This document shows positions 2,529-31,592 of a stretch of DNA of 32,724 bases, one piece after another. The DNA is taken from the NCBI GenBank assembly GCA_027021615.1, contig JALUTY010000074.1:1-32724 (forward strand), written 5' to 3'. Position 1 is the first letter of the stretch. Every line of letters begins with the position of its first letter. This DNA comes from a bacterium (GTDB lineage Bacteria > Desulfobacterota > Deferrisomatia > Deferrisomatales > Deferrisomataceae). The notes beneath the pieces are model-generated. The model searched no databases and was not told where the DNA came from. It saw only the letters and a program-made list of their open reading frames with translations. A program made the position numbers and the translations under genes.

Positions 2529-2798
2529 TCAGTAGTGGTATCGGGCCTGGAGAAAGTCCACACGGTCCGCTGTTACGCGGTACACCAGACGGTGTTCCTG
2601 GGTGATTCGGCGGGACCACACGTTGGGATCGAGGTATTTCAGGGGTTCGGGCTTTCCCAGCCCCTGGAAGGGATCGCGCAGCACGGCCTCCACGAGATCG
2701 AGCACGCGCAGGGCGGTTTTCCGGTGGGTCCTCACCCACCAGCGAAGATCCTCCCGAAACTCCGGATGGAAGACCGCGGCCCGTTCATTCGGCGGCAC
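2529..2798 (-). CDS. yoeB: YoeB-family mRNA interferase toxin
   Basis: The C-terminal half is nearly diagnostic: GKPEPLKY, then WSRRITQEHRLVY and the terminal RYHY, all characteristic of YoeB/Txe. YoeB cleaves mRNA at the ribosomal A site. The family's catalytic Glu (KPE), Arg (SRR) and terminal His (RYHY) are all present. I chose the GTG at 2798 because a GGGAGG lies just upstream; it gives 89 residues against 84 in E. coli and overlaps the antitoxin stop by 14 bases. No ATG fits. The product looks intact. Confidence 0.9.
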   Translation of the reverse strand: MPPNERAAVFHPEFREDLRWWVRTHRKTALRVLDLVEAVLRDPFQGLGKPEPLKYLDPNVWSRRITQEHRLVYRVTADRVDFLQARYHY

Positions 2799-3069
2799 CC
2801 TCGACCTCCCGCCGCAGTTCCTCCAAGGACGTGGGGGCACCTTCCCCTTTGCGCGCCCGGATCAGAGCCCGAAGTAAACGCTCGGCATTGCGGGGCGAGC
2901 GGAGCAGGTGGGCGGTCTCGAGCAGGCTCGAGAGCTCGTCGGCCGCGATGAGCGCCACGTCCTCGCGGTTCCGGCGGCGGATGATGATCGGCTCCCGCGT
3001 GGAGGCGGCCTCGTCCAGGTACTTTGCCAGGTGGGCCCGGGCATCGCTGTACGTGGTTTGGATCGGCAT
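2785..3069 (-). CDS. yefM: YefM/Phd-family antitoxin
   Basis: The 94-residue protein starts MPIQTTYSDARAHLAKYLDE, the YefM/Phd N-terminal DNA-binding fold. REPIIIRRRNREDVALI follows, matching the conserved beta hairpin. The C-terminal part after about residue 60 would bind and neutralise YoeB. It precedes yoeB and overlaps it, the standard order. The ATG at 3069 follows a GGAGGTACC sequence. An eight-base inverted repeat in the promoter is a probable binding site for its own repression, as known for YefM-YoeB. Confidence 0.92.
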   Translation of the reverse strand: MPIQTTYSDARAHLAKYLDEAASTREPIIIRRRNREDVALIAADELSSLLETAHLLRSPRNAERLLRALIRARKGEGAPTSLEELRREVEGAAE

Positions 3070-3083
3070 CGGTACCTCCAGAG

Positions 3084-3126
3084 AGTTGTACATCGTTACG
3101 GTACAACTCGTCGGTGGTCCTGTCAA
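3084..3126 (-). promoter_or_regulatory. promoter and operator of yefM-yoeB
   Basis: On the minus strand -35 TTGACA (3121-3126) is followed after 17 bp by -10 TACCGT (3098-3103). A perfect inverted repeat, AGTTGTAC (3084-3091) and GTACAACT (3101-3108) with a 9-bp spacer, overlaps the -10. It contains TGTAC cores like the known YefM operator of E. coli (TGTACA), which makes repression by YefM likely. Confidence 0.7.
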
Positions 3127-3130
3127 ACGG

Positions 3131-3261
3131 CCGTGACGAGTGGAAACTTCCGTGACGCGTGATCGGTGACAAGTGTCGACGCTTCGCGTCGGCTGGGAGG
3201 CTGGAACGCTAGGAGGCCTTCTAGCTTTCCAGCGGCCCGCGTAGCGGGCCATGGGTGACGG
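3131..3261. repeat. mosaic intergenic repeat, copy 3
   Basis: The modules run in this order: GTGACGCGTGATCGGTGAC; the hairpin CGACGC-TTC-GCGTCG (3177-3191); GGCTGGAACGCTAGGAGGC; then CAGCGG with the hairpin GGCCCGC-GTA-GCGGGCC (near 3234-3250). It fills the gap between yefM and the decayed RelE/ParE gene and ends right at that gene's stop codon. Confidence 0.85.
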
Positions 3262-3519
3262 CTACCGTCCCACTCGTTCCTTCAACAGGCGAACCGTTTC
3301 GATGTAGATGGTGCGCCACGGGCCCACCGCCACGATCTCCAGGATCCCTTCTTCCGCTACCCGGTAGACGATCCGGAACCGAGCCACACGGTAGTTCCGG
3401 AGCCCTTCGAGTTCGGCCCGCAGTGGTTTGCCGGCGAACGGGTCTTTCTGGAGGTGGCGGAAGGCCTCCTTGATCCGCGTCTTGATTCCCGGGTGAAGGG
3501 TCCGAAGGACGCGGCCACA
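3262..3519 (-). pseudogene. RelE/ParE-family toxin lacking a normal N-terminus
   Basis: The frame reads LRTLHPGIKTRIKEAF, DPFAGKPLRAELEGL, NYRVARFRIVYRVAEEGIL and TIYIETVRLLKERVGR, which is a RelE/ParE toxin of the kind paired with Phd antitoxins. About 10-15 N-terminal residues are missing. The frame is closed upstream by the antitoxin TGA (3520-3522), and there is no ATG, GTG or TTG before the conserved part. An ATG overlapping that TGA exists but is in the wrong frame. The lost N-terminus may lie in the last 15 codons of the antitoxin frame, separated by the TGA. The simplest reading is a toxin inactivated by small mutations; a sequencing error is an alternative. Confidence 0.65.
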
Positions 3520-3831
3520 TCAGGCGGCACGCGAAGCGTTCGGGGGGCCGAGGCTGGTGTCAACGGCGCTATTCCCCAAGAGTTCGTCCAGGGTGTAGAG
3601 CGAGGCACATCCCCCGTCGAGATCTTCGAGCCCCTTTCGGATCTCTGCGAGGAACTCCGAATCGAGGCGGATCTCGTGGGTTTCCCGCCAGCTTTCGAAC
3701 TCATGGGGGCTTACCAGAACGGCCACCGGCACGCCGTTCTTAGTGACAACCACCTCTTCGTCGGTACGGCGCACGGCGTCCACGGGGGCGTTTAGCTTCA
3801 TTTTCGCCTCGGACACCGAAAGAGTTTTCAT
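3520..3831 (-). CDS. Phd/YefM-family antitoxin with extended tail
   Basis: The 103-residue product starts MKTLSVSEAKMKLNAPVDAV and continues EEVVVTKNGVPVAVLVSPHE, the typical Phd/YefM fold. The toxin-binding part ends YTLDELLG. Family members usually stop one or two residues after this motif, yet here the frame runs on for 17 residues to ASRAA. Adding a single G to the G-run on the coding strand (plus positions 3574-3577) would give DELLGE followed by TAG, so the tail is probably a frameshift product. The ATG at 3831 has a GGAGG upstream. Its toxin partner immediately downstream is damaged. The fold call is secure. Confidence 0.85.
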   Translation of the reverse strand: MKTLSVSEAKMKLNAPVDAVRRTDEEVVVTKNGVPVAVLVSPHEFESWRETHEIRLDSEFLAEIRKGLEDLDGGCASLYTLDELLGNSAVDTSLGPPNASRAA

Positions 3832-3900
3832 GGCAGCCTCCATTCAGGACGACCAGAACCTTGACCAGAGGAGAGCCGGCATGGGGAGGGGACACAACCC

Positions 3901-3996
3901 GCGACACCGTCCCAACGTCCCAGCGTCCCAACGGTCCCCGACCAACGATTCACGGCAGTCTACGGCAGTTTGCCGGTGACGCGTGACGGGTGATCG
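3901..3996. repeat. mosaic intergenic repeat, copy 4
   Basis: CCGTCCCAACGTCCCAGCG decamers are followed by the tail module CCCCGACCAACGATTCACGG and by GTGACGCGTGACGGGTGATC. It separates the Phd antitoxin gene from cysQ. Confidence 0.85.
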
Positions 3997-4001
3997 GAAT
4001 G

Positions 4002-4793
4002 TCACGCACCGGGGTCCCCTGGCGCCCACGCCCCCTTCGCCACGAAGTAGGGGTTTCGCAGGTCGGGCTTGTTGTAGCGCAGGGGCTCGCCGTCCAGGGT
4101 CTCGACCCGGCCGCCGGCGGCCTCCACGATGGCCTGGCCGGCTGCGGTGTCCCACTCCATGGTGGGGCCCAGCCGAGGGTAGAGGTCGGCCCGCCCCTCG
4201 GCCACGGCGCAGAGCTTGAGCGAGCTGCCGGCCGCGATGCTCTCGGCCACCGGCAGACTCCTCAGATACGCCTCGGTCTCGGGGGAGGGGTGGGACCGGC
4301 TCCGGACCACCACCAGCCCCCGGGCCGGGTCGGGCCGGCGGGCCCGGATGGGCCGGGATTCGCCGTCCGCCTGACGGGTCCAGGCGCCGTTGGTGACGTC
4401 GCCCCAGTACACCCGCTCCTGCACCGGCACGTGGATGACGCCGAGCACGGGCCGGCTCCCCTCCACCAGGGCGATATTCACGGTGAACTCCCCGTTTCGT
4501 TTGATGAACTCCTTGGTGCCGTCCAGCGGGTCGACGAGCCAGAACCTGGACCAGGCCCTGCGGGTCGCGTAGGGGATCTTCCGGCCCTCTTCGGACAGCA
4601 CCGGCACGTCCGGGAAGGCGCGTGCGAGGCCCTCGGCGATCACCCGGTGGGCCGCCCGGTCCGCCTCGGTGAGGGGGGATCGGTCACCCTTCTCCTCCAC
4701 CTGGATGTCGCCCTGGTAGATCCGGAGGATCTCGGCGGCCGCGGCTTCGGCGAGTTCGAGCAGGAGTCGGATGGTGGGGTTCGGGTTGTCCAT
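4002..4793 (-). CDS. cysQ: 3'(2'),5'-bisphosphate nucleotidase CysQ
   Basis: The 263-residue protein belongs to the inositol-monophosphatase-like phosphatase family. Metal-binding motifs are in place: VLSEEG (E68, E69), VDPLDGTKEF (D88-F95) and the later MEWDTAAG. TKEF after the DPLDG motif is the form typical of CysQ rather than inositol monophosphatase. CysQ removes the 3'-phosphate of PAP (and PAPS), recycling the by-product of PAPS-dependent reactions. Its place behind cysC, cysD and cysN on the same strand supports this. The gene is separated from cysN by a 200-bp repeat block, so whether it is co-transcribed is unclear. The ATG at 4793 is the first plausible start. Confidence 0.92.
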   Translation of the reverse strand: MDNPNPTIRLLLELAEAAAAEILRIYQGDIQVEEKGDRSPLTEADRAAHRVIAEGLARAFPDVPVLSEEGRKIPYATRRAWSRFWLVDPLDGTKEFIKRNGEFTVNIALVEGSRPVLGVIHVPVQERVYWGDVTNGAWTRQADGESRPIRARRPDPARGLVVVRSRSHPSPETEAYLRSLPVAESIAAGSSLKLCAVAEGRADLYPRLGPTMEWDTAAGQAIVEAAGGRVETLDGEPLRYNKPDLRNPYFVAKGAWAPGDPGA

Positions 4794-4810: not shown

Positions 4811-5017
4811 CCGTGACGAGTGGGAAAGGCGGTGACGCGTGATCGGTGATCGGTGACGGGGCCCCGTGCGGACGCTCGGACGTGCGGACGTGCGAACGGA
4901 ACGTCCCAACGTCCTAACGTCTAACGTCCCAACGTCTAACGTCTAACGTCTAACGTCCCAACGGTCCCCGACCAACGATTTACGATCCACTTACGATCCA
5001 CGATTCACGGCAATTTG
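4811..5017. repeat. mosaic intergenic repeat, copy 5 (long decamer run)
   Basis: It starts GCCGTGACGAGTGGGAAAGG and contains a run of ACGTCCCAACGTCTAACG-type units. It ends in repeated TTACGATCCACG units and GATTCACGGCAATTTGG. It fills nearly the whole gap between cysN and cysQ. Confidence 0.85.
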
Positions 5018-5028
5018 GCCCCCGCTCC

Positions 5029-6852
5029 TCACCCCCTGAAGATCACCCCCCGCTCCTGGAGCGCCGCCGTGATGCGGCGTACCGCGTGGTCCAGGGGCTC
5101 GGCAGGGTCCGACTTGATGTCGAACGGGATGTCGGTGCGGACCTCGTCGCCGGCCCACACCACGAGGGTGCGGTGCTGCTGCACCACGGTCTGGATCAGG
5201 TCGAGGTCGGTGTGGGTCAGATCGATGGCGCTGGCCACCAGGATGGTGCCCGCGTCGAGGAACAGGTGCGCCACCTCGGCGAACCGACGCAGGTGCTCCT
5301 CGCGGTGGTCGGCCAGGCTGTTGATGCCGGGGGCTTTGATGTCGGCGTCCAGTCCGTAGACGAGGCTCCCGAGCCCCAGGTAGTACACGAAGCGGCCCCG
5401 GGCGAACAGCTCGGCCTCCAGGGCCTTGGCCAGGTCTTTCTTGTGGGACTCCCGGGCGCCGGTCACGAGGACCAGGGCGGGCTCCTGGCTGTACCGGGCA
5501 GCCCGGTCCTCCCGCGGGATGGCGCTGCGGGTCCACTTGATGTTGCGGACCACCACCTTGTCGCGGACCCAGGACTGGTCGTCCGGCAGGGCCTCCTGGA
5601 TGATGCCGCCCCCGCTGATCTCATAGTTGTCGATGATGACGAACCGGCCGGTGTCCGGCAGGTCGCGGCTCAGGTCGAAGGCCAGCGGCTGGTCGCAGAC
5701 GATCACGCATTCGGCCACGTCGTGGCGACCCACGGCCTTGGCGTCGTCGGTGGCCTCGAGGGTGGAGGCGTCGATCAGCCGGTGGACCGACTCGAGCCGG
5801 GCGGGCACCTTGGCGGTGCCGATCCGCAGCACGTAATCCCTGCCCGGTGTCATGGGTTGGCGGCCGAGCCAGAACAGGCTCGACCGGAACCGGGTGGACA
5901 CGTGGGGCGGCGGCTCGTCGGCCCGGACCGCCAGGTCGCCCCGCGTCACGTAGATCTGCTCGGTCATGGTAAACCCGGCCGGCTCCCCCTGGGTCGCGCT
6001 GCGCAGTGCGTCCTCGGGGGGCTCGGGCGGAGGGAACTGCTCGAACGACTTGACCACGGTGCTCTTGCCCGAGGGGTAGAACACCACCCGATCACCCACC
6101 CGGAGGGTCCCTGACGCCACGGTGCCGGCGATGATCCGGCGGTTGTCCCCGAACCGGGTGAACTTGTACACGTCCTGCACCGGCATCCGGAAAGGGAGGT
6201 GGTCGTGGTCGGCCCGGGCCTGGAAGGCGTCCAGGGCGTCGAGCACGGTGGGGCCCCGGTACCAGCCCGTCCGTTCCCCCCGGTCGGCCACGTTGTCGCC
6301 GGCGAACCCGCTGACCGGGATGTAGGCGCTGGCCTCCATGCCGATGGTGCCCAGGAACGATCGGTACTCCTCGCGGATCCGCTCGAAGGCCTCCTGGCTG
6401 TACTCCACCAGGTCCATCTTGTTCACCAGGACAGCCACCTGCTGGATGCCGAGCATGGAGAGCATGTAGCCGTGGCGCCGGGAGTTCTCCCGCACGCCCT
6501 CGTTCGCGTCGATCACCAGGAGTGCGGCCTCGGCTCGGGACGCACCGGTGATCATGTTCTTCAGGAACTCGATGTGGCCCGGGGCGTCGATGATGATGTA
6601 ATGGCGCTTGGCCGTCTTGAAGAACACCCGGGCCGCGTCGATCGTGATGCCCTGGGACTGCTCGTCCTTGAGGGCGTCGAGAAGGAAGGCGTACTCGAAC
6701 GGCCTGGAGGTCCGTTCGCACAGGTCGCGGATCTGCTCCAGCTTGCCCTCGGGCAGGCTGCCGGTGTCGGCCAGTAGCCGGCCGATGATGGTGGATTTGC
6801 CGTGGTCCACGTGGCCCACGATCACGATGTTCATCTGCTCCGTCTGGGTCAT
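5029..6852 (-). CDS. cysN: sulfate adenylyltransferase subunit 1 (CysN) with degenerate APS-kinase-like C-terminus
   Basis: CysN is the regulatory GTPase of ATP sulfurylase and drives APS synthesis by CysD. The N-terminal GTPase has GHVDHGKS (about residues 13-20), DAPGH and NKMD. Translation-factor-like beta-barrel domains follow up to about residue 430. The last 150 residues resemble APS kinase ([28 protein letters not shown]), but the Walker A segment is [11 protein letters not shown] instead of GLSGSGKS, so kinase activity is unlikely. A true cysC lies upstream in the same operon. I use the ATG at 6852, which follows an AGGTGA; a GTG at 6864 and an ATG at 6834 are alternatives. A repeat block separates it from cysD. 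Confidence 0.93.
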
Positions 6853-6880
6853 CTCGTTCGTCACCTGTTTCGTTGTGCGA

Positions 6881-7054
6881 CTGCCGTTTGGTCGGGGACC
6901 GTTGGGACGTTAGACGTTGGGACGTTAGGACGTTGGGACGCTGGGACGTTGGGACGTTCGGACGTTGGGACGTTGGGACGCCGAAATGCCTCCTAGCCTC
7001 CTAGCGTCCCAGCGTCCCAGCCGACGCGAAGCGTCGACACCCGTCACCGCAGTT
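6881..7054. repeat. mosaic intergenic repeat, copy 6 (opposite orientation)
   Basis: Modules appear in reverse-complement order: CTGCCGTTTGGTCGGGGACC, about ten GGGACGTT(A/G) decamers, CCTCCTAGCCTCCTAGCGTC, and the CGACGC-GAA-GCGTCG hairpin (7021-7035) with ACACCCGTCACC. It lies between cysD and cysN and ends two bases from the cysD stop codon. Confidence 0.88.
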
Positions 7055-7055
7055 C

Positions 7056-7961
7056 CTACATATACCCTTCTCGCCGCAGGGTCTCGAGGCCGCCGCCGTC
7101 GTCCTTGTCCTGGGCTCGGCCGGCCCGCTCGGCCACGTTCTTGAGACGGCCGCTGCGCAGCTCATCGATGATCTCGTCCACGGTGCCGGCGTCGGACTCG
7201 ATGGGGAACGTGCACGGCCAGCACCCAAGGGAGCGGTAGCGCTTCCCCTCGCCCTGGTCGTAGTAGAGGGACACGGTGGGGATGTTCTCGAGCTTGATGT
7301 ACTCCCAGATGTTGAGCTCGGTCCAGTCGAGCAGCGGATGGATGCGCACGTGGGTGCCGGGTGCGAAGTCCACCTTGTAGTAGTTCCAGAACTCGGGGGG
7401 CTGGTCACCGATGTCCCAGCTCGAGGCCCGGTCGCGGGGGGAGAAGTACCGCTCCTTGGACCGCGAGCCCTCCTCGTCGGCGCGCACCCCCACGATCACC
7501 CCGGTGAACGGCTCGGTGTTCCTGTCCTTCTCGTACCGCCCGGTCTCGTGGTTGAACCGGTATCGAGGCCAGGTGCCGGCCAGGGTGTTCCGGAGCGCCA
7601 GGGTCTTGAGGTTCCGGCAGCACGTGATCCGATCGACGTTGCCGTCGGGGAAGGTCTGCTTCGCCTCGAGGGCCTCCCGGTTCTCCCCGTAGATCATGGT
7701 CAGGTGCCACTCCCGGGTGAGCCGGTCCCGGTACTCGATCATCTCGGGGATCTTGTAGTGGGTGTCGATGTGCACGAGCGGGAACGGTACGTGGCCGTAG
7801 AACGCCTTGCGGGCCAGCCACAGCAGCACTGTGCTGTCCTTGCCGATGGACCACAGCATGCACAGGTTTTTGAAGTTGGCGTACGCCTCCCGCAGGATGT
7901 GCACGGAGGTGTTCTCCAGCTTGCGAAGATGGGCGTATCGGTTGACCAGGATCTCCGTCAT
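7056..7961 (-). CDS. cysD: sulfate adenylyltransferase subunit 2 (CysD)
   Basis: The 301-residue protein is the catalytic subunit of ATP sulfurylase (ATP + sulfate to APS + PPi). The PP-loop SIGKDS is at residues 38-43, followed by family segments such as [38 protein letters not shown] and LGCWPCTFP. Length and domain order match the family. The ATG at 7961 is four bases inside the end of cysC (ATGA overlap), so translation is coupled. The last residues, RREGYM, are a typical CysD end. The gene order cysC-cysD-cysN, with cysC first, is unusual but coherent. Confidence 0.97.
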
Positions 7962-8596
7962 CGTGCCTCCCGTCTCTCCGTGAGGGGCTGAAACCAGTCC
8001 TGCTTCCGGGTCTCCACGTACCGCACCACGTGCGAGACGCACTCATCCACGCTCCAGCGGGCCGTGTCGAGGACGAGATCGGGGCTGTCGGGCTCCTCGT
8101 AGGGGCTGGAGATGCCGGTGAAGTCCGGGATCTCTCCGGCCCGGGCCTTGCGGTACAGCCCCTTGGGGTCGCGCCGCTCACATGTGGCCAGGTCGCACTT
8201 CACATGGATCTCCACGAACTCCCCCGGTCGGAACAGGGCCCGCACCCGCTCCCGGTCGTCCCGGAACGGCGAGATGAAAGCGGTGAGCACCAGCAGCCCG
8301 GCGTCCACGAACAGCTTGGCCACCTCGCCGACCCGCCGGATGTTCTCCTTGCGGTCCGCCGCGGAGAAGCCCAGGTCCCGGTTCAGGCCGTGACGGACGT
8401 TGTCCCCGTCGAGCAGGTAGGTGTACCAGCCCCGGTCGAACAGCTGCCGCTCGACGGCGTGGGAGATGGTGGACTTGCCCGAGCCGGACAGACCGGTGAA
8501 CCAGAGCACCATGGAGGGGTGTCGGTTTCTCCGGTGGTAGTCGGCCCGCGACACGAGCCGCTCGTGCCACCGGATGTGGGTCGGTTTCGCGGACAT
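7958..8596 (-). CDS. cysC: adenylyl-sulfate kinase (CysC)
   Basis: CysC phosphorylates APS to PAPS. The 212-residue product has the Walker A motif GLSGSGKS at about residues 35-42, then [18 protein letters not shown], the family's APS-binding signature. [25 protein letters not shown] and [20 protein letters not shown] follow. All expected elements are intact, unlike the degenerate copy fused to CysN. The ATG at 8596 overlaps the permease stop by one base (TGATG), and the gene end overlaps cysD by four bases, so permease, kinase and CysD form one coupled unit. Having PAPS and CysQ suggests a PAPS-dependent reduction or sulfation route elsewhere in the genome. Confidence 0.96.
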
Positions 8597-10371
8597 CAAA
8601 AGCTCCAGATCATGGGAATGAGAAGCACGGATCCTACCAAGTAGAGCAGGTGCAGGGGGAGCCCCACCCGGACGAAGTCGGTGAACCGGTACCCGCCCGG
8701 GCCGTACACCATCATGTTGGTCTGATACGCCACCGGGCTCGCGAAGCTGGCCGAGGCTGCCACGGCCACGGCGATGACGAACGGGTGGGGGTCGAGCCCC
8801 GCGCTCTTCGCGGCCGACAGGGCCACCGGGAACGCCAGGGCCGCGGCGGCGTTGTTCGTGATGAACCCCGTGAGCCCCGACGCGAACACGAACACCGCTC
8901 CCAGGAGGACACGGGGGCCCAGCCCCTGGACCGCCTGCAGCATGATCGAGGCGATGGAGGCCGCCGCCCCGGTCTTTTCGAGGGCGTAGCCGATGCCGAG
9001 GGAGCTGGCGATGACGACCAGCACGTTGATCTCGAGGGATCGGCGGGCCTCCACGGCGGTGACGCAGCGGGTGACAATGAGGAATACGGCCGCGAGCACG
9101 GCGGACTTGAGCACGCTCAAGGCTCCCGATGCCGACAGAAGCACCATGCCGCCCAAGGCGATGGCGGCGAGCCAGGTCTTCCGCCGGTCGAGGCGGGGCA
9201 TCTCGGAGACCGTGGAGACCAGGTAGAACTCGCGGGAGCGGCCCCAGCGCTTCAGAAAATCGGGGCCGCTCAGCAGGAGCAGGGTGTCGCCGGGCCGGAG
9301 CTTGAGCGCACCCAGCTTCCCGCGCACGCGCCCGCCATGCCGGTGCACGGCCAGCACCACGGCGTCGTAGCGGCCCCGGAAGTTGCCCTCTTTGATGGTC
9401 CTTCCGAGCAGCGGCGAGGACCGGGACACCACCGCCTCGAGCACCTTGCCTTCGCCGCGGCGACGGATCTCGTGGTACAGGTCGTGGCCCCCCGACGGCA
9501 CGAGGCCCGGGATCCGGTGGAGGACCACGGCGCCCTCGGCTGCGCCAGCGAAGATCAGCCGGTCCCCCTCCTCCAGCACGTCGGTGGGCTTGACCGGCGC
9601 GATCGAGGTCGGACCGCGCAGGATCTCGGCCAGGAACACGCTGCCCAGCCGCCGCAGGCCGGCGGTCTCGACCGTCTTTCCCCGCAGAGGGCTTCCCGGG
9701 GTGAGCCGCATCTCGAACAGGTACTCCCGGCCGGGCCCAAACAGGGACTCTTCCGGGTCGCTACGGTCGGGCACGAGCCGCGGCCCCAAGGTCAGGAGAT
9801 ACACGATGGCGAGCAGGGCGCAGGGCACCCCCACCCACGCCAGTTCGAACATCGAGAGGGAGCGTCCTACCGTCTCCTGGTACATGCCGTTGATCAGGAG
9901 GTTGGTGGAGGTGCCGATCAGAGTGCACAGCCCTCCCAAGATTGAGGCGTACGACAGGGAGATCAGGAACTTCGATGGGGGGAACCCCTTACGGTGGGCC
10001 CAGTCGCGCACGGCCGGCAGGAACATCGCCACGATCGGGGTGTTGTTGAGGAAGGCCGAGAACGAGGTGACCGAGAGGATCATGCGCGCCAGCGCACGGC
10101 GCATGCCCCTGCCGTCGCCCATGACCTTGGCGGCCACGTACTCCAGCACGCCGGCCGACTGGGCCGCATAAGCCACGATAAACAGCACCGCCACGGTGAT
10201 CATGGCGCTGTTGGAGAAGCCGGCCAGGGCCTCGGAGGGGTCGAGCACGCCGGCCAGGAGCAAGGTGCCGAGGGCCGAGAAGGTGACCACGTCGGGCGGA
10301 AGCAGGTCGAAGGCAAGGCACACCACCATGGCGGCCACCACCACCAGGGTGAGCACGGCTTCAACCGTCAT
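8596..10371 (-). CDS. SLC13-family permease with two RCK-C (TrkA-C) domains, probable sulfate transporter
   Basis: The 591-residue membrane protein has about ten to twelve hydrophobic segments in two blocks. Between them is a soluble part (about residues 215-390) with two TrkA-C-like modules: MRLTPGSPLRGKTV to GDRLIFAG, and VVSRSSPLLGRTIKEG to LRPGDTLLLLSG. SFLNNTPIV-type segments (FSAFLNNTPIVAMFLP and GFITNNAAAALAFP) and LIGTSTNLL are SLC13/DASS signatures. Close relatives carry sulfate. Position at the head of the cys operon supports sulfate uptake, although other anions cannot be excluded from sequence. The ATG at 10371 is preceded by AGAGGG. An upstream ORF overlaps its start by 11 bases. 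Confidence 0.9.
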   Translation of the reverse strand: MTVEAVLTLVVVAAMVVCLAFDLLPPDVVTFSALGTLLLAGVLDPSEALAGFSNSAMITVAVLFIVAYAAQSAGVLEYVAAKVMGDGRGMRRALARMILSVTSFSAFLNNTPIVAMFLPAVRDWAHRKGFPPSKFLISLSYASILGGLCTLIGTSTNLLINGMYQETVGRSLSMFELAWVGVPCALLAIVYLLTLGPRLVPDRSDPEESLFGPGREYLFEMRLTPGSPLRGKTVETAGLRRLGSVFLAEILRGPTSIAPVKPTDVLEEGDRLIFAGAAEGAVVLHRIPGLVPSGGHDLYHEIRRRGEGKVLEAVVSRSSPLLGRTIKEGNFRGRYDAVVLAVHRHGGRVRGKLGALKLRPGDTLLLLSGPDFLKRWGRSREFYLVSTVSEMPRLDRRKTWLAAIALGGMVLLSASGALSVLKSAVLAAVFLIVTRCVTAVEARRSLEINVLVVIASSLGIGYALEKTGAAASIASIMLQAVQGLGPRVLLGAVFVFASGLTGFITNNAAAALAFPVALSAAKSAGLDPHPFVIAVAVAASASFASPVAYQTNMMVYGPGGYRFTDFVRVGLPLHLLYLVGSVLLIPMIWSF

Positions 10372-10606: not shown

Positions 10607-10739
10607 TGACCGGTGACGGGTGTCGACGCTTCGCGTCGGCTGGGACGCTAGGAGGCTAGGAGGCTTTCTGGCTCCCCAGCTTCCCAGCTTTCTAGCTTTC
10701 CAGCGGCCCGCGTAGCGGGCCATGGGCGACGGGTGACGT
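10607..10739. repeat. mosaic intergenic repeat, copy 7
   Basis: Modules in order: GTGACGGGTGTCGACGCTTC with the hairpin CGACGC-TTC-GCGTCG (10624-10638); CTAGGAGGCTAGGAGGC; a pyrimidine-rich CCCAGCTTCCCAGC stretch; then CAGCGG with the GGCCCGC-GTA-GCGGGCC hairpin (about 10703-10720). It lies between the divergent sulfate operon and the histidine kinase gene. From 10740 to 10862 I see no gene and no convincing promoter; an AT-rich patch (GTAAACTTTCAATTTTTGAG) ends near 10810. Confidence 0.85.
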
Positions 10740-20321: not shown

Positions 20322-20755
20322 AAGAACTACCGGGTTGGGGCGCGGAGCAGCGGGGTGGGAGCCGCTTGGCAGGTCGCAGGTCGCAGGTCGTAAGTCGTGC
20401 AACGCCCACCACGGACGACCAACGAAGAACGACCCGCGGCGGTCGAACGATTCCCGATTCCCGATTTACGATTCACGACCTCCGGCCATTCCTCGCGCTT
20501 CTCGTCGCCGTGGCGCTCCTGGGCGTTGGAGGGGCCGTGCCGGCGGCGGAACGGCCGAAGCCGCCGGCCGAGATCCGGATGAAAGAGGTCGAGATCCGGG
20601 GCGAGGTGGAGCGGCCCGGGGTGTTCTACGTGATCCCCCGACGGCCCACCCCCCTGGACCTGGGCCCCCGCACCCGGGACTTCCGGCCCGAGATCCTGGA
20701 GCCCTTGCTCCCGCAGGGGGAGGCGGGGGGGAACGTTGGGACGTTAGGACGCTAG
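20318..20755 (+). CDS. small secreted protein with repeat DNA inserted in frame at both ends
   Basis: The ATG at 20318 overlaps the previous stop (ATGA), as do other joins in this cluster. After about 18 codons the frame runs through dispersed-repeat DNA (20370-20480). A signal-peptide-like segment (FLALLVAVALLGVGGAVPAA) therefore appears only at about residues 58-77. A conserved-looking core follows, EIRMKEVEIRGEVERPGVF and YVIPRRPTPLDL, of a kind I have seen beside ExbB/ExbD genes. The last residues NVGTLGR and the stop come from another repeat copy. No ATG, GTG or TTG lies just before the hydrophobic segment. Export may be impaired, or a non-standard start may be used. The repeat insertions are visible in sequence; their effect is inference. 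Confidence 0.6.
   Translation: MKELPGWGAEQRGGSRLAGRRSQVVSRATPTTDDQRRTTRGGRTIPDSRFTIHDLRPFLALLVAVALLGVGGAVPAAERPKPPAEIRMKEVEIRGEVERPGVFYVIPRRPTPLDLGPRTRDFRPEILEPLLPQGEAGGNVGTLGR
20370..20480. repeat. mosaic intergenic repeat, copy 8, inside a coding frame
   Basis: AGGTCGCAGGTCGCAGGTCG units are followed by GACGACCAACGAAGAACGAC and by GATTCCCGATTCCCGATTT units ending ATTCACGACC. It belongs to the tail module of the family and is translated as part of the 20318-20755 frame. Confidence 0.8.
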
Positions 20756-21015
20756 GACGTTGGGACGTTGGAAGGCTAGGAGGCGGAAAGGCCGTGACGC
20801 GGTGACGGGGTAACGCGTGACGGGTATCGACGCTTCGCGTCGGGTGGAAGGCTGGAACGCTAGGAGGCTAGGAGGCTTTCTGGCTTCCCAGCGGCCCGCG
20901 TAGCGGGCCATGGGTGACGGGGAGGCGTGCGGACGGCGTTGCTGCCCCCCTCGTCCCAACGTCCTAACGTCCCAGCGTCCCAACGGCCCTCGACCAACGA
21001 CGAACGACGAACGAT
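20731..21015. repeat. mosaic intergenic repeat, copy 9, most complete copy
   Basis: In order it has GGGACGTT decamers, GTGACGCGGTGACGGGGTAA, the hairpin CGACGC-TTC-GCGTCG (20828-20842), CTAGGAGGCTAGGAGGC, the GGCCCGC-GTA-GCGGGCC hairpin (about 20892-20908), then inverted decamers (CGTCCCAACGTCCTAACG) and the GACCAACGACGAACGACG tail. It sits between the small secreted protein and the TolQ-type gene, splitting the motor cluster. Confidence 0.9.
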
Positions 21016-31500: not shown

Positions 31501-31592
31501 GTGGGAACTGCCGTGAATCGTGAATCGTTGGGGCGACCGTCCCAACGTCCCAGAGTCCCAACGTCCCAACGTCCCAACGTCTTTCCCGATTG
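31501..31592. repeat. mosaic intergenic repeat, copy 10
   Basis: The tail module CTGCCGTGAATCGTGAATCG (inverted relative to copy 2) is followed by CGTCCCAACGTCCCAGAG and CCCAACGTCCCAACGTCC decamers. It lies between the terminator and the leader of the CAP-domain gene. Confidence 0.85.

Follow-up and report, generated by a model that had tools for sequence, protein, structure and literature searches.

In the ATP sulfurylase of Penicillium chrysogenum, a dead APS-kinase domain that has kept its fold is located at the C-terminus, and, in the available portion of PMC3734648, this domain of a single-chain enzyme, unrelated to the one studied here, confers regulation by PAPS. The APS kinases of Entamoeba histolytica and Thiobacillus denitrificans belong to sulfurylase-kinase fusions of which one half, although dead, has been kept; the dead sulfurylase half of the Entamoeba protein stabilises the oligomer and raises activity, as described in the available part of PMC13213808. 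A third kind of relative comprises the bifunctional CysNC and NodQ proteins, in which CysN carries a C-terminal domain with the APS-kinase fold. Here, we show by sequence, tree and structural model that the C-terminal domain of a bacterial CysN is a pseudoenzyme, derived from an APS kinase whose lid and capacity to bind ATP and APS were lost at the root of a distinct CysN lineage. A mainly open-access literature search, with subscription papers mostly outside its scope, turned up no account of CysN carrying a dead APS kinase.

The window, by which we mean the entire 32,724-nt stretch of DNA analyzed, contains a minus-strand sulfate-activation operon with, in order, genes for a transporter, cysC, cysD, cysN and cysQ. 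The anion transporter (8596–10371), which has TrkA_C domains and matches CitMHS (254.6 bits) and Na_sulph_symp (45.1 bits), is likely involved in sulfate uptake. The APS kinase gene cysC (7958–8599) was originally predicted to be intact, as borne out by matches to Pfam APS_kinase over profile positions 2–152 (230.1 bits) and to TIGR00455 (271.7 bits, cut-off 138.7). The small subunit of ATP sulfurylase is encoded by cysD (7056–7961); the open reading frame is listed from 8042, but the likely start is the ATG at 7961, which overlaps the stop codon of cysC. The last two genes are cysN (5029–6864), for a 611-aa protein consisting of the GTPase subunit of ATP sulfurylase and the C-terminal pseudo-APS-kinase domain, and cysQ (4002–4793), for a 3'(2'),5'-bisphosphate nucleotidase (TIGR01331, 312.4 bits, cut-off 228.8).

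Degenerate tandem units of about 8 bp (ACGTTGGG / CCCAACGT) flank cysN on both sides, at 4900–4975 and 6882–7005, and also fill the intergenic regions 1558–1613, 2433–2488, 3884–3939, 20701–20816, 20928–20991 and 31522–31585. A dispersed intergenic element of about 110–130 nt (families D4 and D8) is present in three copies in the window (3160–3268, 10607–10739 and 20811–20927), and minus-strand toxin-antitoxin genes (1687–2133, 2529–2840, 2785–3252 and 3520–3843) encode a PIN protein, YoeB and two Phd/YefM antitoxins.

The GTPase part of the protein (residues 1–425, minus strand, 5590–6864; GTP_EFTU, 158.5 bits) is that of a genuine CysN: it lies next to cysD, the protein exceeds the cut-off of the TIGR02034 profile (348.2 bits against 336.1), and the G1, G3 (DAPGH) and G4 (NKMD) motifs are intact in the translation. 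The best solved relative of this part is 1zun_B.

The pseudo-APS-kinase domain comprises residues 439–611 (minus strand, 5032–5550), as delimited by alignment A1, the structure model and structural matches. The original prediction that the CysN tail keeps an APS-kinase core but lacks the Walker A motif proved accurate: Pfam APS_kinase matches the last ~150 residues with 38.6 bits (cut-off 21.1) over profile positions 2–99 of 152, and GARESHKK stands opposite GLSGSGKS of CysC. The region of homology starts at about 5550, some 50 bases beyond the earlier limit of 5500, because it includes the counterpart of the CysC N-terminal arm (NIKW..., minus strand, 5482–5550). In APS kinases, the N-terminal arm contacts the partner subunit. 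The AlphaFold2 model of the domain alone, built with 78 sequences, has a pLDDT of 88.6 and a pTM of 0.86, and that of full-length CysN has a pLDDT of 85.6. Among solved structures, APS kinases are the top matches to the domain model, with Z scores from 21.0 to 16.7 (6b8v_A, Z 21.0; 3uie_A, Z 20.5), whereas the best kinase of any other kind reaches 14.6, so the fold expected at the outset is upheld by structure prediction. Given this model and its structural matches, a chance resemblance to APS kinases is excluded. Furthermore, Pfam reports APS_kinase in all 78 members of alignment A1, with E values of up to 0.01.

The fold is that of an APS kinase, whereas the catalytic and ligand-binding residues are not. 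Beyond the eroded Walker A (minus strand, 5437–5460; identified by translation and alignment), the domain lacks DGDN, the APS-binding arginine, the I-S-P turn and the entire lid. At 5359–5376, GLGSLV replaces DGDNVR, with the loss of both Asp residues and the APS-binding Arg; the lid (...FTG in CysC) is deleted, its place being at 5110–5169 (both on the minus strand). We compared the 78 family domains of alignment A1 with 47 intact kinases, with the functional roles of the scored residues assigned from structures of Mycobacterium tuberculosis CysC in the available part of PMC4373884. Among the 78 domains, the P-loop Ser/Thr is lost (Lys instead in 63), as are the first DGDN Asp (Gly instead in 74), the APS-binding Arg (Leu instead in 56) and the SP turn; every one of the 78 has gaps in the lid columns. 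A broader set comprises 154 distinct family domains, of which 1 has an intact Walker A, 3 have the second DGDN Asp (Asp66) and 2 have the APS-binding Arg69; none has the [SAT]P turn, and none has the lid Arg together with the lid Lys. In the sole domain with a Walker A (L117), neither Arg69 nor the SP turn nor the lid is present. By comparison, 66 of 70 intact kinases possess all six features scored. None of the five catalytic or ligand features scored is present in 149 of the 154 domains, so the refuting case originally named, a single-strain lesion, fails; such a lesion or an assembly error is also ruled out by the presence of the domain at 96–97% identity in same-genus genomes and its conservation across phyla.

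We searched for further members of the family by scanning one genome per species, which confirmed 572 relatives of the query, and retained the best 80 of the 572, from many phyla. About half of the family sequences stem from the full-length query and are thus biased toward domain-bearing relatives; as a correction, searches with the GTPase part only were run in five groups, matching 29 of 297, 24 of 198, 26 of 246, 22 of 245 and 25 of 145 genomes (threshold 1e-90 in the first group, which includes other CysN types, and 1e-120 in the other four). Of the 163 distinct CysN whose GTPase score exceeds 450 bits, 160 have an APS-kinase-like tail, dead in 156 (one being a remnant of ~94 aa) and live in 4; the 3 without a tail include one that ends at a contig edge. 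The domain occurs in records labelled Bacillota, Planctomycetota, Spirochaetota, Omnitrophota, Chloroflexota, Calditrichota and others.

In all, 195 sequences were classified, from which we selected 81 and 73 of those in hand for two trees. The 81-sequence tree, in which the bootstrap has not fully settled, contains a clade of 63 (support 100/100), comprising 57 with a dead domain, 3 with a live one and 3 with none. In the 73-sequence tree of GTPase parts, the 45 domain-bearing members form one clade (100/99), apart from that with the NC fusions. The dead domains themselves also form a single clade in the tree of domain sequences (100/99).

The domain is missing from two CysN of the planctomycete set (L201 and L202) and from one, on a long branch, of the spirochaete set (L178), and only the ~94-aa remnant is left in L184, so the domain is not indispensable. 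The GTPase branches of the three domain-less proteins are unusually long (1.52–1.61, compared to a median of 0.5), as if the constraint on CysN had been released or shifted. One genome (G147) encodes two dead-domain CysN, one by CysC and the other by an APS reductase (L117/L206; L185), and a clostridial family member (L217) has an in-frame TGA within the GTPase part. The source genome of the window encodes a second CysN (L002; G000:C17:96117-97352), with a GTPase part 47% identical and a different terminal domain of ~105 aa that is common to its relatives L012–L015, L137–L139 and L143; another tail, of ~155 aa, is found in L140, L203 and L227. The C-terminal end of CysN seems to be a preferred site of domain gain.

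Descent of the dead domain from a canonical CysNC fusion is not supported, the GTPase parts being in separate clades. Descent from a live fusion within the same lineage is plausible because three CysN with an intact-looking kinase (L134, L204 and L205) branch just outside; Asp66 and some of the lid signature are missing from the L134 kinase, and the kinase tree gives no resolution on a live-fusion origin. Within the clade, three Clostridia (L212, L225 and L226; 99/87) have an intact kinase in place of the dead domain, and their sister (L218; 99/96) has the dead domain, with CysC encoded directly downstream. The swapped-in kinases cluster with CysC proteins encoded by genes of their own (98/86) instead of with the dead domains, so that a return to life of the dead domain is rejected as the source of the swap; a deletion joining cysN to the neighbouring cysC would account for it. 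No separate strong APS kinase was found in the genomes of these three Clostridia. It seems that an APS-kinase fold, live or dead, fills the same need, and this interchangeability favours a structural role.

The domain is under strong purifying selection in the genus of the window. Comparison of the window with each of two same-genus genomes gave dN/dS values of 0.035 and 0.056 for the domain and of 0.115 and 0.121 for the GTPase part; when the two genomes were compared with each other, the values were 0.055 (domain) and 0.097 (GTPase part). The domain also diverges no faster than the active enzyme: in 150 sampled pairs from 60 operons with both, pairwise identity averages 48.1% among the dead domains and 47.8% among the active CysC proteins. 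Both results disfavour a drifting remnant.

Conservation within the domain is exceptional at positions mapped from a published APS-kinase dimer interface. In the M. tuberculosis kinase, dimerisation is mainly via helices 2 and 3 (available part of PMC4373884). We took the interface positions from the Entamoeba APS kinase dimer, as a single published list in the available part of PMC13213808, the numbering of which we derived from the P-loop Lys315, a remark on the glycine/Asn345 and the helix spacing. With this mapping, the mean entropy of the eight mapped positions is 0.95 bits, compared to 2.05 for the whole domain, and only 5 of 20,000 random sets were equally low. The ATP site (2.72 bits) and the APS site (2.41 bits) are variable in the dead domain. 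In intact kinases, the same interface positions have 1.43 bits, that is, the dead domain is tighter, and Glu50, Phe54 and Tyr61 are examples of positions more conserved in the dead domain than in live kinases. A helix that contributes much of the interface between the subunits of APS-kinase dimers is conserved here (residues 521–537, minus strand, 5254–5304, from the secondary structure of the model); rather than pairing, its conserved residues may serve the fold itself or an interaction with the GTPase part.

On balance, the domain is probably a pseudoenzyme module for dimerisation and assembly of CysDN, with oligomer formation suggested by the conservation of the mapped interface. It would have been retained for a structural task, the pairing of domains with the APS-kinase fold, and, judging from that interface, would most likely link CysDN units into a dimer or a larger sulfate-activating complex. 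With its motifs intact, CysDN would still make APS, the next step being presumably catalyzed by the separate CysC; in relatives without CysC, the gene neighbours suggest that APS passes to a 4Fe-4S APS reductase. The proposal that the domain became a regulatory or assembly module stands as to non-catalytic retention, with assembly fitting best, and falls as to APS binding of the normal kind, given the near-complete loss of Arg69 (2/154), the second DGDN Asp (3/154), the SP turn (0) and the lid (0).

A different partner for the conserved face would be CysC itself: the dead domain might pair with live CysC via the kinase dimer interface and tether it to CysDN, with APS handed on. The interface entropy is 0.45 bits in 33 CysC-bearing sequences (L044, L051 and L053 being assigned by the CysC at the same locus and the rest by genome scan) against 1.00 in 15 without a strong separate kinase, with Tyr61, Gly71 and Glu92 each present in 33 of 33; however, the two groups differ in relatedness and the gap may be phylogenetic. 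Moreover, cysC often adjoins cysN, and the three Clostridia with a fused live kinase are those where no separate strong APS kinase was found. Against such docking, 15 of 49 genomes scanned for APS kinases have the dead domain but no strong separate APS kinase, part of which could reflect missing sequence in genomes that were reached via other loci and have no completeness values; the other 34 hold another APS kinase or a fragment, including one with a contig-edge fragment of a real CysC (G109). All 13 CysH-like proteins of at least 150 aa near cysDN loci have the 4Fe-4S APS-reductase signature, none of these loci holds CysC, and 11 lie in CysC-less genomes. Because of this reductase near cysDN, CysC is unnecessary for reduction in 11 of the 15. 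The dead domain outlives CysC, so that CysC binding cannot be its only role. As a general function, the originally suggested CysC binding thus does not hold, whereas it is possible where CysC exists; overall, we regard docking as a rather unlikely alternative to the assembly module.

Allosteric sensing of a nucleotide, by analogy with the PAPS-binding dead C-terminal domain of Penicillium ATP sulfurylase, is unlikely. The logic would be the same, with an ATP sulfurylase carrying a dead APS kinase (available parts of PMC3734648 and PMC13213808), and the Lys at the P-loop Ser/Thr position (93/154) and the Lys or Arg at position 42 (123/154) make anion binding conceivable. However, the APS contacts described above are gone, only Arg83 staying in 94 of 154 domains, and the entropies of the sites are 2.4–2.7 bits. 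Also doubtful, and somewhat more so, is a substrate-passing complex for sulfate activation built around the dead domain, whose dimer face would hold the next consumer of APS, CysC or, in other lineages, possibly APS reductase; if so, APS would be handed over rather than released, and live-kinase fusions would no longer need a separate CysC.

It is very improbable that the domain is a vestige on its way out, kept only through the rarity of deletion: four proteins (L201, L202, L178 and L184) have lost or shortened it, but the low dN/dS (0.035–0.056), the identity equal to that of active CysC and positions such as Glu50, Phe54 and Tyr61, more conserved than in live kinases, all speak against this. 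Residual APS kinase activity by an unusual mechanism, with which automatic annotation would agree given APS_kinase in 78 of 78 members of A1, is hardly credible from the sequences, which have lost the lid altogether, along with the Ser/Thr that binds Mg, the two Asp of DGDN and the Arg, and 34 of 49 genomes have another APS kinase or a fragment.

The dead domain is a widespread bacterial pseudoenzyme within a core pathway. Pfam calls it an APS kinase, so pathway predictions can err where the domain is the only match. The swaps for a live kinase that occurred in nature make the role of the dead fold for CysDN directly testable.

Compared with the known systems, the CysN domain has the fold of CysC but neither its Walker A and DGDN motifs nor its lid. 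It resembles the bifunctional CysNC and NodQ proteins in architecture, but scores 455 bits against PRK05506 (cut-off 715), lacks the residues of a competent kinase, and is attached to a GTPase part in a clade separate from canonical CysN/NodQ. Relative to the Entamoeba and Thiobacillus enzymes, it is a mirror image, the sulfurylase half being dead and the kinase live there. The Penicillium domain is likewise dead, C-terminal and close in fold (Z 17.7 for 1m8p and 17.4 for 1i2d); however, the partner here is the GTPase CysN and not a single-chain enzyme, Pfam finds no sulfurylase domain in the CysN protein, and the APS contacts and the lid are lost. The CysN domain works somewhat like the fungal regulatory domain without being a member of that system.
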